Shown here in pieces: positions 14,714 through 17,658 of a stretch of DNA of 58,029 nucleotides. Below the pieces are notes generated by a model that was not told the origin of the DNA, did no database searches, and saw nothing but the letters and a program-made list of their open reading frames with translations. Positions within the stretch are counted from its first letter, which is position 1, and every line of letters begins with the position of its first letter. Both the position numbers and the translations under genes were made by a program. This stretch comes from Paenibacillus sp. FJAT-26967 (lineage in GTDB: Bacteria > Bacillota > Bacilli > Paenibacillales > NBRC-103111). The stretch lies in the NCBI RefSeq assembly GCF_001541095.1, contig NZ_LMXH01000013.1:1351-59379 (forward strand). Direction: 5' to 3'.

Positions 14714-14775
14714 ATTTTTCCACTCTTGTATTAAAGAAGGAAAAAAATGATAATAAAAACATGTTTAAATAGCTA

Positions 14776-14940
14776 TTAGCCCCAATAGTTCCTCTCTAGA
14801 GGTTTTTTTTGTGAAAAAGACTTTTCTAATGATACTTTCTCCAACACGCTCAATTTTTCCGTGGATTGTATGCCTGCTTTTTTCACGTTACGAATGACTT
14901 CTTTGATTTCTGGAGACCAGACAATTGAATTTGCTAGCAT
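14776..14940 (-). CDS. ComX-like peptide pheromone precursor candidate
   Basis: A 54-residue peptide from ATG 14940 with a strong GAGGTGAT ribosome site 5 bases before the start. Its N-terminal third (SPEIKEVIRNVKKAGI) resembles the NPEV-type start of ComX precursors, the middle is charged and helical, and it ends PLERNYWG with one Trp next to the terminus; ComX precursors are about 55 residues and are isoprenylated on a Trp close to the C-terminus (for example RQWGD). It lies head-to-head with a ComP-like kinase, 62 bases apart. Unlike the known comQXPA order, it is divergent and no comQ prenyltransferase is present. Alternative: an unrelated small protein. A plus-strand hairpin/T run (14791-14810) lies inside the coding region. 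Confidence 0.45.
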   Translation of the reverse strand: MLANSIVWSPEIKEVIRNVKKAGIQSTEKLSVLEKVSLEKSFSQKKPLERNYWG

Positions 14941-15002
14941 AAATTATCACCTCATATTATAGATTAATTGCTGTTACTATTATATTACTGGAGTGGATAT
15001 TT

Positions 15003-17333
15003 ATGAAAGAGAAAAAACTATTTTTTATAATGTTTTTTTTATTATGTCTCATGCAAACCTATTTTCTATGGCTTGTTTATGCCTATCCATATATCGGAGC
15101 TGTTATTACCCCTGATAACAACGGAAGCTGGGTAGTCTCAGATTTTGAAAAACTGGGAAAAGGAAAGGCGTTGGGGATCGAGATTGGTGATATAGTTGAG
15201 AAGATCAACGGGGAAGAGTTACATAAACATCAACAATGGAGATTGTGGAAAAACATAGAGCAGGCCGAGCGAATTGAAGTTAAGCGTGGTGGAGAAGATG
15301 TACAAATACATATTCCTAAAAGTGGAACGTTATACGCTAATGATTTAGGGGCATTTATTATTGAAGTGCTTAGTTTTTTTCTTGCTGCATTTTTATATGT
15401 CAAAGCAAAGCAGTCTCAATCCGCTAAGTACTTAATTTTAGTTTTCTTTACAATTGGGCTGGAGTTTATGGTTTTAGGCGCCTCGAGCAGAGGAGACATA
15501 TGGGGCAAATATCTGATTACCACGGTAATTGTCATTGTGCCTGTAGCATTTCTTCATTTTCTAATTACTTTTTTCAATGAAAGAGCACCGGTCGTATTTC
15601 CCAAGCGTATCTTGCACGTTTTATATGGATTAGCTGGAATCGGAGCCGTTCTTAGAATTGTTTATTTTTCTGAAAAATATGCGCATACATACTATGAATA
15701 CAGTAATTACACGGTTATTCCCTTATTCTTAGTTGGGATTATATCGAATATTTATTTTTTGTTTCAAGCTTACCGACAACTGAGGACTAATCTCTATATG
15801 AGGTCTCTCATTAAAAGTATTTTATATTCCTTGATCATTTGTTTCTTTCCCTTTTCCTTTTTATCTTTACTGCCGATGTTAATTTTTAATAAAGAACTAG
15901 TAAGTGCATTTTATACAAGCTGGTTTATTCTTATTCTTCCGTTGTCATTTGCTTACTTTATATTATCCAAAAAACTGTATGATATTGATCTTTATCTAAG
16001 GCGTGTTCTGTTTACCATGCTGGTTTCTACGCTGCCAAGTTTATTGACAGTAGGGTTTATTCTCTTTGTTTATCAACATACCATTACCTGGATTGAAGTA
16101 ACGTTTATTTTCATTATTGTTCTAGTCATTTTTTCAATCTTCACTTACTCTATGGAATACATTGCTACAAGGCTGGAAAAGGTTATGTTTCCTCGTAAAT
16201 ATTTTTTGCAGCAGTCGCTCAAAAAAATCTCCAAAGCCTTAGGCACGGTCAGCAACTTCAATGCGCTCAAAGAAATTATACTTAACGACATAGTGAATGC
16301 GTTAGAAATACACGGGGGCGCTATTGTTTTTGTTGAAACGGATGGAATCCAGGTCATTACGGCAGGCAATATTGATGAGGAAGAGGTTTGTGAATTGTTA
16401 GAAAAGGGAGTCAACCAGGACGACCAATATACGGCTTTTAAAATCAATGAAAATGAGGAATACAAAAGCTTTCTGGTTCTGACCGGCAAGAAATCAAACA
16501 CTTATCTCGGTATGGAAGACCGCCAGTGGATCCATCTGATTATTACATACCTTTCTGCCAGTCTGGAAAATGTATATCTTCTCCGTAAGCTAACGCTTAA
16601 AATGTATGAATTGATGGCCAACATCCCCAATTCGGAAGCAACGGAAGAGTTCGTGTGGCTGCGTAAAACGATGTTCGAGATCCAGGAGAAAGAGCGGATG
16701 CGGATAGCCATGGATCTTCACGATACGACGATGCAGGACTTATTCCTGCTAAAGCGGCGATTGCATCCGATTCTGCAGCGGTTTCCTCATATGACGGATG
16801 AATACGGGCAGCTTACTACCATTTTGACGCACATTGATCTGATCAATGAGAATCTTCGTCAGAGCTGCTTCGAACTGAATCCGTATTTGCTGCAGAAGGC
16901 AGGGCTTATAGGCAGTATCCAGAAGCTGGTCGACGTAGAGAGTGCCTACTGTGAATTCCAGCTGGAGTTTCAGGAGAACTGCTCCGTTCATATCGAATTG
17001 CTGGATGTAGAACGTAAAAAGCATCTTTTCCGGGTAGTACAGGAGCTCCTTAACAATGCCAAAAAGCATTCCCATGCAGAGAATGTTCGGATCTCTCTGT
17101 CTGAAGATGGCGGCTGCATTGAACTTTCTTATGAAGATGACGGAGTTGGTTTTGAGCTGCTTCAGAAGGATAGCGGCCTCAATAAACGGGTTGCGAGCCG
17201 ATCGGGCATCGGACTGGATCAAATGCAGGGGCGTGTACTGCTGATGGATGGCGATTTTGTAATCCATACGAATACCGGTCAAGGGGTCCGCATTGAGATT
17301 CGGATCCCCTTCTTAGAGGGTATGATTGCATAG
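15003..17333 (+). CDS. ComP-like membrane sensor histidine kinase
   Basis: 776 residues. After an N-terminal helix (about 7-27) comes a PDZ-like extracytoplasmic segment (GIEIGDIVEKINGEEL, about 57-74), then about nine more membrane helices (115-382), a GAF-like linker, and a HisKA_3 kinase with WLRKTMFEIQEKER...DLHDTTMQDL; the phospho-histidine is H573. The ATPase N box is ELLNNAKKHS, with DDGVGF and SGIGLDQM boxes. This plan and the WLRK..IQEK linker closely match ComP of Bacillus, the receptor for the ComX pheromone. No ComA-type regulator follows: the next gene, 22 bases on, is a pterin dehydratase. The coding sequence is very AT-rich over the sensor half and shifts to about 50% GC at the kinase half (near 16500-16600). 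Confidence 0.85.
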   Translation: MKEKKLFFIMFFLLCLMQTYFLWLVYAYPYIGAVITPDNNGSWVVSDFEKLGKGKALGIEIGDIVEKINGEELHKHQQWRLWKNIEQAERIEVKRGGEDVQIHIPKSGTLYANDLGAFIIEVLSFFLAAFLYVKAKQSQSAKYLILVFFTIGLEFMVLGASSRGDIWGKYLITTVIVIVPVAFLHFLITFFNERAPVVFPKRILHVLYGLAGIGAVLRIVYFSEKYAHTYYEYSNYTVIPLFLVGIISNIYFLFQAYRQLRTNLYMRSLIKSILYSLIICFFPFSFLSLLPMLIFNKELVSAFYTSWFILILPLSFAYFILSKKLYDIDLYLRRVLFTMLVSTLPSLLTVGFILFVYQHTITWIEVTFIFIIVLVIFSIFTYSMEYIATRLEKVMFPRKYFLQQSLKKISKALGTVSNFNALKEIILNDIVNALEIHGGAIVFVETDGIQVITAGNIDEEEVCELLEKGVNQDDQYTAFKINENEEYKSFLVLTGKKSNTYLGMEDRQWIHLIITYLSASLENVYLLRKLTLKMYELMANIPNSEATEEFVWLRKTMFEIQEKERMRIAMDLHDTTMQDLFLLKRRLHPILQRFPHMTDEYGQLTTILTHIDLINENLRQSCFELNPYLLQKAGLIGSIQKLVDVESAYCEFQLEFQENCSVHIELLDVERKKHLFRVVQELLNNAKKHSHAENVRISLSEDGGCIELSYEDDGVGFELLQKDSGLNKRVASRSGIGLDQMQGRVLLMDGDFVIHTNTGQGVRIEIRIPFLEGMIA

Positions 17334-17355: not shown

Positions 17356-17658
17356 ATGGCTTCTGCAGATAAACTTTCTCATGATCAAATTGCTGTAAAG
17401 TTAGCAGGACTTACCGGGTGGAATTTACGGGATGAGCGCACGATCGAAAAGACGTATGAATGCGGAGATTTTCGAAACGCTATTGATTTTGTAGGCCGCG
17501 TAGCGGACGTGGCTGAGTCGCTTGAACACCATCCATTGATTAAAGTGGAGGGCAAGCGGGTTACGGTGCAGCTTAGTACCCATGATGTGAGTGGGCTGTC
17601 GGATATGGATTTCACTTCTGCGGTGCAATATGACGGCGTGCTGCCGGCACGAGGGTAA
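17356..17658 (+). CDS. Pterin-4a-carbinolamine dehydratase (PCD/DCoH)
   Basis: A 100-residue protein of the PhhB/PCD family, which dehydrates 4a-hydroxytetrahydrobiopterin during pterin-cofactor recycling. The signature is clear: EHHPLIKVEGKRVTVQLSTH followed by the GLSDMDF end. GGAGGG lies 9 bases before ATG 17356. It sits 22 bases behind the comP-like gene and may be cotranscribed with it, which is probably incidental. No phenylalanine hydroxylase is nearby, so its role may be in a different pterin pathway. Confidence 0.9.
   Translation: MASADKLSHDQIAVKLAGLTGWNLRDERTIEKTYECGDFRNAIDFVGRVADVAESLEHHPLIKVEGKRVTVQLSTHDVSGLSDMDFTSAVQYDGVLPARG

Follow-up and report, generated by a model that had tools for sequence, protein, structure and literature searches.

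A satellite ComX/ComP-type pheromone pair in Paenibacillus sp. FJAT-26967 and its probable reliance on ComQ and ComA encoded elsewhere in the genome

The 58,029-nucleotide (nt) stretch of Paenibacillus sp. FJAT-26967 analyzed here (hereafter, the window; contig NZ_LMXH01000013.1, positions 1,351 to 59,379) carries a gene for a short Trp-ended peptide head to head with a gene for a ComP-like sensor histidine kinase. How could such a ComX/ComP-type pair signal where neither a ComQ-like enzyme, which would prenylate the peptide, nor a ComA-like regulator is encoded beside it? The preliminary description, made from the sequence alone, took it for a reduced or rewired quorum-sensing pair whose peptide is modified or read out differently. 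Our analysis indicates that the pair is a satellite of a full cassette on another contig, and that its peptide is quite probably prenylated in trans by ComQ and then acts, through its kinase, on ComA or, less likely, on another NarL-type regulator.

The divergent peptide and kinase genes

The features of the pair are as follows (aa, amino acids; ORF, open reading frame; dN/dS, ratio of non-synonymous to synonymous substitution rates).
14776..14940, minus strand: ComX-like precursor peptide gene, 54 aa, MLANSIVWSPEIK...ERNYWG (ORF, ComX profile homology, dN/dS 0.07)
14779..14790, minus strand: codons of the C-terminal NYWG, with the penultimate Trp as presumed prenylation site (sequence)
14902..14919, minus strand: codons of the N-terminal WSPEIK, a conserved leader motif of the peptide family (two alignments)
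14946..14953, minus strand: ribosome site GAGGTGAT of the peptide gene (sequence)
15003..17333, plus strand: ComP-like sensor histidine kinase, 776 aa, no adjacent response regulator (ORF, Pfam, alignment, hydropathy)
15003..16187, plus strand: ten-helix membrane sensor, residues 1-395 (hydropathy, AlphaFold2 model, homology to ComP sensors)
15099..15311, plus strand: PDZ-like domain, residues 33-103, between helices 1 and 2 (sub-cut-off Pfam, profile matches, model)
16692..16877, plus strand: HisKA_3 dimerisation and phosphorylation domain, residues 564-625 (Pfam)
16719..16736, plus strand: H573-D574-T-T-M-Q578, the phospho-acceptor His with the DxxxQ pattern (invariant in 10 of 10 aligned kinases)
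17016..17312, plus strand: HATPase_c domain, residues 672-770 (Pfam)

The 54-codon NYWG frame with its ribosome site, placed by the preliminary description 62 bases from a divergent kinase, was recovered in every detail: GAGGTGAT lies 5 nt ahead of the peptide ATG on the minus strand, and the start codons of the two ORFs are 62 bases apart. Precursor length and penultimate Trp both fall within the range given for the B. subtilis ComX precursor in the part of the 2014 census drawn on here (about 52-73 residues, Trp within the last 5-10; PMC4008528). The peptide shares 89% of its residues with the ortholog of P. lutrae, the nearest relative of the source genome in the genus; the two genes differ by 16 synonymous and 7 non-synonymous changes, at a dN/dS of 0.07, and six further peptide comparisons within the genus gave 0.12-0.35. 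Values of 0.05-0.07 for the peptide, sensor and kinase of the window pair point to purifying selection on all three. Judged from sequence comparison, the frame is a real gene under purifying selection and not a chance one, given the 89% identity, the dN/dS of 0.07 and the conserved location of the pair throughout the five genus genomes.

A ten-helix kinase on the ComP plan, with a PDZ-like segment, HisKA_3 and H573, had also been described, and Pfam, profile comparison, hydropathy and an AlphaFold2 model all agree with this. HisKA_3 and HATPase_c exceed the Pfam cut-offs; two PDZ matches fall under them, and approximately residues 43-119 match the PDZ chains of DegP and site-2 proteases by profile. 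The hydropathy plot has twelve peaks, two of which overlap a neighbour, leaving ten segments, and the model (mean predicted local distance difference test score 70.7) places ten long helices ahead of residue 396, with a beta domain at residues 33-103 between the first two. The best 50 of 1,020 matches in a fold search with this model were histidine kinases or their domains, at low template-modelling scores over the whole model; the search is uninformative on the sensor. The sensor half is homologous to sensors encoded beside canonical ComX (best E 7e-46), and the best six of 28 partial ComP sequences are 26-28% identical to it over 426-485 aa. The kinase next to the peptide gene thus has the multi-helix sensor, HisKA_3 and HATPase_c of the ComP type. 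In HisKA_3 kinases the DxxxQ pattern is associated with phosphatase activity.

The relationship of the peptide to ComX emerged from profile comparison. A profile of 18 divergent peptides matched one of 15 canonical ComX sequences of the order with 91% probability and a score of 32.4, which none of 200 column shuffles reached (maximum 19.1). The match persisted at 86% without the last four columns, and a wider profile of 33 peptides gave 90%. Common to both families are the second half, with the pattern LS..E..A, and the Trp, whereas the first half differs and is of the WSPEL type in the divergent peptides. By this homology the window peptide is a distant ComX relative. The search with PF05952 that had been suggested as a check came out the other way: the model has no match in the window peptide, none in the genome at E ≤ 10, and only a weak one (E 0.0025) in one of 18 relatives of the peptide, results that count against a ComX relationship. 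The Pfam test is a weak one, because the B. subtilis control genome, although found by PF05952, also stays under the cut-off of the model. No other Pfam family matched the window peptide at E ≤ 1, and NCBIfam gave no match near a cut-off. Annotation via PF05952 therefore misses this divergent peptide family, which falls outside that model.

Full cassettes and satellites in the genome and its relatives

Using the genome's own ComA-like and ComQ-like proteins as queries, tblastn found no relative of either in the window (E ≤ 1e-4), as the preliminary description had stated for isoprenyl transferases and ComA-type regulators. Its wording 'without ComQ or ComA' holds for the window and fails for the genome, where one ComQ-like enzyme and one close ComA-like regulator stand beside a paralogous pair. 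The genome has four polyprenyl-synthase matches, the weakest about 3 kb from the paralogous peptide. This locus, on another contig, consists of a peptide gene on the minus strand and, on the opposite strand, a ComP-like kinase gene, a NarL-type regulator gene that overlaps the kinase end, and the gene of a 312-aa enzyme with a polyprenyl-synthase fold (Pfam). A genome without ComQ, considered earlier, was dropped after the polyprenyl-synthase search and the reading of this locus.
G000:C1:247481-248101: ComA-like regulator, the one close one in the genome, beside the paralogous kinase
G000:C1:248155-249087: ComQ-like enzyme, the sole one in the genome at E ≤ 1e-25, beside the paralogous full cassette

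No other regulator of the genome comes close to the ComA-like one, the next best reaching 23-29% identity. ComQ-like enzymes from 11 divergent cassettes are 31-36% identical to the best among 24 ComQ candidates linked to canonical ComX; all 11 keep DDxxD as the first aspartate-rich motif, with an NDxxD-like second one that nearly all canonical candidates also have. The full system of the lineage is X on one strand and P-A-Q on the other. Given such a cassette elsewhere in the genome, the window pair, with X and P only, is a satellite without its own A or Q. 'Reduced or rewired' is accurate for a locus lacking its own enzyme and regulator, and misleading for the system, which has both.

The arrangement was traced through the genus in P. 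lutrae N10, P. chitinolyticus NBRC 15660, P. sp. HGH0039 and P. sp. UNC499MF in addition to the source genome. Peptide matches occurred in all five genomes at 11 places, each head to head with a kinase of the same type. Every genome holds a full cassette along with a satellite, and the divergent satellite is at the same place in all five. In UNC499MF there is also a third pair, whose own regulator is 39% identical to the reference ComA-like protein and which has no adjacent ComQ.

For a wider survey, the best 80 of at least 138 confirmed relatives in a kinase-profile scan of species genomes were taken, giving 79 distinct loci from Paenibacillus, Cohnella, Chengkuizengella and unnamed bins. An earlier peptide count had required a Trp near the C-terminus and was hence biased; it was replaced by a Trp-blind profile with the last eight columns removed, applied near the kinase start at E ≤ 0.1. 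A divergent peptide was found at 74 of the 79 loci, although some of the genomes tested had contributed peptides to the profiles used here and in the family count below. All 74 peptide genes are divergent, and every one of the 74 peptides has a Trp among its last three residues (penultimate in 61, final in 12 and third from last in one); such a Trp was present in 13 of 232 other ORFs from these regions. Five loci without a peptide above the threshold (L119, L144, L145, L155 and L165) are exceptions to the rule; L155 and L165 have Trp-ended divergent ORFs below it. The divergent peptide gene, presented by the preliminary description as a departure from known systems, is therefore present and conserved, as its suggested survey of relatives was to establish, and it is the standard of the lineage and not a peculiarity of this locus.

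Downstream of the kinase, both A and Q were found at 50 of the 79 loci, A only at 8, Q only at 2 and neither at 16, with the contig end too near at 3. Among these 16 is L131, the leading kinase of a tandem whose other member is followed by A and Q. A locus in another genome (L078; G013:C5) has two divergent peptide/kinase pairs in tandem ahead of a single ComA and a single ComQ, and may represent an intermediate step towards a satellite. On a kinase tree, the state with neither gene needs 10 changes, at least 6 of them forced by well-supported branches; this was a quick tree with long-branch warnings, whose 79 rows are 77 of the 79 loci (L144 and L165, with no long kinase ORF, were left out), the window and the genome's own full cassette, and on which L131 was scored as having neither. 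The 10 changes suggest that satellites arose or were lost repeatedly. The five genus satellites that include the window form one supported clade.

Across 104 genomes of the Genome Taxonomy Database (GTDB) family, the peptide was detected in 77 (E ≤ 1e-3), a ComQ-like enzyme in 80 (E ≤ 1e-25) and both in 75. The two genomes with the peptide only are 68% and 85% complete; among the five with ComQ only, two have canonical ComX and one (G089) has a short peptide found weakly by an earlier profile. Peptides outnumber ComQs in 27 of the 75 genomes with both, equal them in 43 and are fewer in 5, with a maximum of five ComX-like peptides in one genome. Of 27 kinase loci without an adjacent ComQ, 16 were checked in 15 genomes, and 13 of these genomes have a ComQ elsewhere, the other two being 4.3-Mb metagenome bins; for the remaining 11 loci, the named genome also holds a locus with ComQ. 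The co-occurrence of ComQ with the peptide and the surplus of peptides over ComQs are the main argument for ComQ acting in trans on satellites.

Several further observations concern the distribution of these loci. Pfam ComX was over its cut-off in 64 of 392 genomes of the order, mostly in another family, and in our reading 21 of 30 such loci (L038-L067) have, on a single strand, a ComQ-sized ORF, ComX and a ComP-like ORF; the order therefore contains both architectures. What appears to be a metagenome bin (G018; L043, L085, L186, L191) combines a canonical ComX locus with three divergent peptides and has four ComQ-like enzymes. One ComQ-like match (L188; G017:C1:3236969-3237880) has a TAA inside the matched stretch; the gene may be broken, or the match may simply run past its end. 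A match at L026 (E 0.08) was set aside, as no Trp-ended peptide lies next to any kinase there.

Signal, receptor and output

To relate peptide and receptor divergence we used 106 locus pairs whose kinase cores are at least 85% identical. Peptide identity correlated with sensor identity at rho 0.77 and with kinase identity at 0.45, the locus pairs being not independent of one another and the argument resting on these close pairs only. L111 and L126, for example, have identical kinase cores (100%), with sensors 65% and peptides 50% identical, and the satellites at the same site in UNC499MF and HGH0039 have cores at 98%, sensors at 49% and peptides at 33%. Such joint change of peptide and sensor is, as far as these alignments indicate, the mark of pherotypes.

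A second comparison concerns the output. In four genomes of the P. tyrfis group, satellite and full-cassette kinases are 96-97% identical in the phosphotransfer domain and 59-63% in the sensors, which fits both kinases serving one ComA.

Other findings pull the opposite way. Full cassettes of the source genome and P. lutrae (core 99%, sensor 78%, peptide 95%) and of UNC499MF and HGH0039 (core 99%, sensor 60%, peptide 81%) have changed sensors with nearly the same peptides, so a shift in the sensor is not always accompanied by one in the peptide. When all 2,850 pairs are taken, sensor and peptide have a partial correlation of only 0.14 once the kinase is controlled for, perhaps due to distant peptides failing to align. 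Within the window's genus, satellite and full-cassette kinases are 60-61% identical in the phosphotransfer domain and 33-34% in the sensor, which makes a shared ComA a weaker inference there, and not a compelling one.

Given these patterns, the mechanism we consider probable is the following. The 54-aa precursor would be translated, and its near-terminal Trp would be prenylated by the one ComQ-like enzyme of the genome, supplied from the other locus. The precursor would then be trimmed and exported as a short C-terminal peptide, to be read outside the cell by the ten-helix sensor of the adjacent kinase. The kinase would in turn alter the phosphorylation of the one close ComA-like regulator or, less likely, of another NarL-type regulator; that the satellite receptor probably acts on the same ComA as the full cassette is suggested by the kinase comparisons. 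Prenylation, secretion, receptor binding and the choice of regulator are what we infer from the families to which the genes belong. The satellite could be an added activator or a dominant repressor, the DxxxQ pattern leaving both possible.

The alternative that survives best accepts the pair as real and connects it to another response regulator, making it a circuit of its own and not a further input to ComA. The 60% phosphotransfer identity in the genus would fit such a circuit, as would the pterin dehydratase gene that follows the window kinase in place of a regulator and the third UNC499MF pair with its own regulator, diverged to 39% identity. Yet the next-best regulators of the genome are distant from the ComA-like one (23-29%), and the phosphotransfer domain is still the best kept part of the kinase (60%, versus 33% for the sensor and 44% for the catalytic domain). 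We consider an independent circuit unlikely, while taking it seriously.

Less plausible, and in our view improbable, is that the satellite peptide is secreted unmodified and that the kinase reads a bare aromatic C-terminus. This would account for a locus without ComQ and for the position of the Trp, which in most of the 74 peptides is next to last (61) or last (12) and not further inside. However, 75 of the 77 peptide-bearing genomes have a ComQ, as do 13 of the 15 tested genomes with ComQ-less loci, and the Trp is kept in 74 of 74 peptides while other C-terminal residues vary; a bare hydrophobic contact would not demand Trp. The proposal of a differently modified peptide is likewise not the leading reading: with a ComQ in the genome, the same prenylation supplied in trans is favoured.

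A decaying remnant of a full cassette, which lost ComQ and ComA and ceased to signal, would be expected from repeated loss or partial duplication, and the satellites are indeed scattered over the kinase tree (10 changes). The window pair is nevertheless intact, its peptide, sensor and kinase evolve at a dN/dS of 0.05-0.07 and it is kept in all five genus genomes, which makes decay very unlikely. That the small frame is a spurious or leader ORF and no pheromone gene can practically be dismissed: short ORFs are common and this one is matched neither by Pfam nor, near a cut-off, by NCBIfam, but the dN/dS of 0.07 with 16 synonymous changes, the divergent Trp-ended peptide at 74 of 79 loci and the ComX profile homology contradict it.

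Neighbouring elements and relation to known systems

Control elements and a conserved neighbour of the pair are as follows.
14726..14754, plus strand: weak candidate kinase promoter TTGTAT-17-GATAAT past the peptide stop (sequence reading; putative for the window)
14979..15007, minus strand: promoter-like TTCATA-17-TATAAT for the peptide gene, sharing bases with the kinase start codon (10 of 12 matches in a consensus scan)
14990..14993, plus strand: ribosome site GGAG of the kinase (sequence)
17356..17658, plus strand: pterin-4a-carbinolamine dehydratase gene, 22 bases past the kinase (Pfam; conserved neighbour)

The dehydratase directly follows the kinase, as the preliminary description had it. 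It lies about 20 bases after the satellite kinase in all five genus genomes in an operon-like manner (also L071, L073, L082 and L083), identified by Pfam in the window and by a near-identical N-terminus at the other four loci. On the other flank, all five genomes have a 600-aa gene, which we take to resemble a RecQ-type helicase. An upstream cytochrome P450, present in the window and P. lutrae, is not among the ORFs of the other three genus loci and was rejected as a member of the system.

The consensus promoter scan gave 5 sites for the region, where 2.2 were expected, and is no evidence of function. It does not include the candidate at 14726..14754 and lists a site at 14931-14960 on the plus strand instead. 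The candidate sits where 42 of 73 relatives carry a conserved element. That element, seen at L122:4585-4659 (minus strand) and at the same place in many of L092-L166, is strongly conserved 14-26 bases past the peptide stop and, toward the kinase, reads TATACA-17-TG[GT]TAAAA. TG[GT]TAAAA occurs at 42 of 73 loci versus 35 of 17,529 control windows, the motif having been defined on those same loci, and the spacing to a TAT[AG]CA-like hexamer ahead of it is 17 in 35 loci and 18 in 2. The element overlaps a hairpin, AAGAGATTGTATATT...ATACAATCTCTTTT. At first we took it for a terminator alone, but a spacing fixed at 17 bases points to a promoter directed at the kinase in addition. The element may thus be kinase promoter and bidirectional terminator together, with the kinase leader antisense to the peptide gene. 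No Rfam RNA family was found in the seven loci searched.

Like ComQXPA of Bacillus, the system has a short precursor with a Trp near the C-terminus and ComX profile homology, a ComP-homologous sensor, and, in the genome, a ComQ-like enzyme and a NarL/ComA-type regulator. It differs in the divergent peptide gene and the full-cassette order, X opposite P-A-Q instead of Q-X-P-A on one strand, as well as in a window pair without its own Q or A, a peptide outside PF05952 and several pairs per genome with one Q. In its section on unusual loci, the 2014 census reports hypothetical ComX sequences known only by a C-terminal Trp, on the opposite strand in B. cereus strains and Lysinibacillus fusiformis, and notes that Lysinibacillus species have two com loci; unlike here, its hypothetical comX is located between comQ and comP, and the authors saw no reason to think the unusual com-like loci functional (PMC4008528). 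That section contains no description of satellites without comQ and comA, and its one Paenibacillus, P. curdlanolyticus, has the canonical order (PMC4008528).

The PalX/PalQ/PalP system of Paenibacillus alvei also combines, within a single cluster, a Trp-ended precursor, a Trp prenyltransferase of isoprenoid-synthase fold and a histidine kinase; in the part of its description used here, PalX has an NHLP-type leader and PalQ is remotely related to ComQ (PMC10853753; also covered in the review PMC13290415, in the part consulted). The lineage described here is set apart from it by that description, having an enzyme 31-36% identical to canonical ComQ and a ComX-like precursor. General Pfam and NCBIfam searches gave no NHLP-type leader match to the window peptide, PalX itself being not directly compared. 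In the literature searched, mostly outside subscription journals, neither a divergent cassette as lineage standard nor ComX-ComP satellites without ComQ and ComA in Paenibacillus are described.

Receptors of the RRNPP group (Rap-Phr and kin) are cytosolic and of the TPR type, and Rap-Phr receptors act inside the cell, whereas the window receptor is a membrane histidine kinase. The Rap-Phr expansion of Bacillus subtilis is similar in having several receptor/signal pairs with private signals and one regulator, but Rap-Phr acts by repression, and here the expanding unit is a membrane kinase with a ComX-type signal (PMC4771773, in part). The 2016 study behind this comparison set out to explain the multiplication of Rap-Phr paralogues in B. 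subtilis, where ComP-ComX has remained unique; in the part relied on here, it concludes that the accumulation of activating systems is selected against, as predicted and as found in B. subtilis, and states that its authors were aware of no bacterium running several activation-based systems side by side (PMC4771773). The present lineage appears to break this rule, because 27 of the 75 genomes hold more ComX-like peptides than ComQs, with up to five peptides.

The satellites make the rule testable, since they could be extra activators (OR) or dominant repressors relieved by their own signal (AND). If the hub-and-spoke layout is true, one ComQ must accept quite different C-termini. A more speculative idea, which we rate as doubtful, is that satellites are facultative-cheating modules around ComQ and ComA as hubs: the peptide-free kinase would be a phosphatase of the shared ComA, as the kept DxxxQ pattern could allow, and would become permissive with its private pheromone, giving an AND-like gate. 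Were this so, it would explain the multiplication of ComX-ComP in Paenibacillus despite the predicted selection against activators. With ComQ and ComA as hubs, a new private dialect would need only one divergent peptide/receptor cassette of about 2.6 kb, and where the promoter-like element lies past the peptide stop, as in many relatives, a receptor transcript running antisense across the entire pheromone gene could set sending against listening. A cell of this soil bacterium may listen to several private signals via one shared output.

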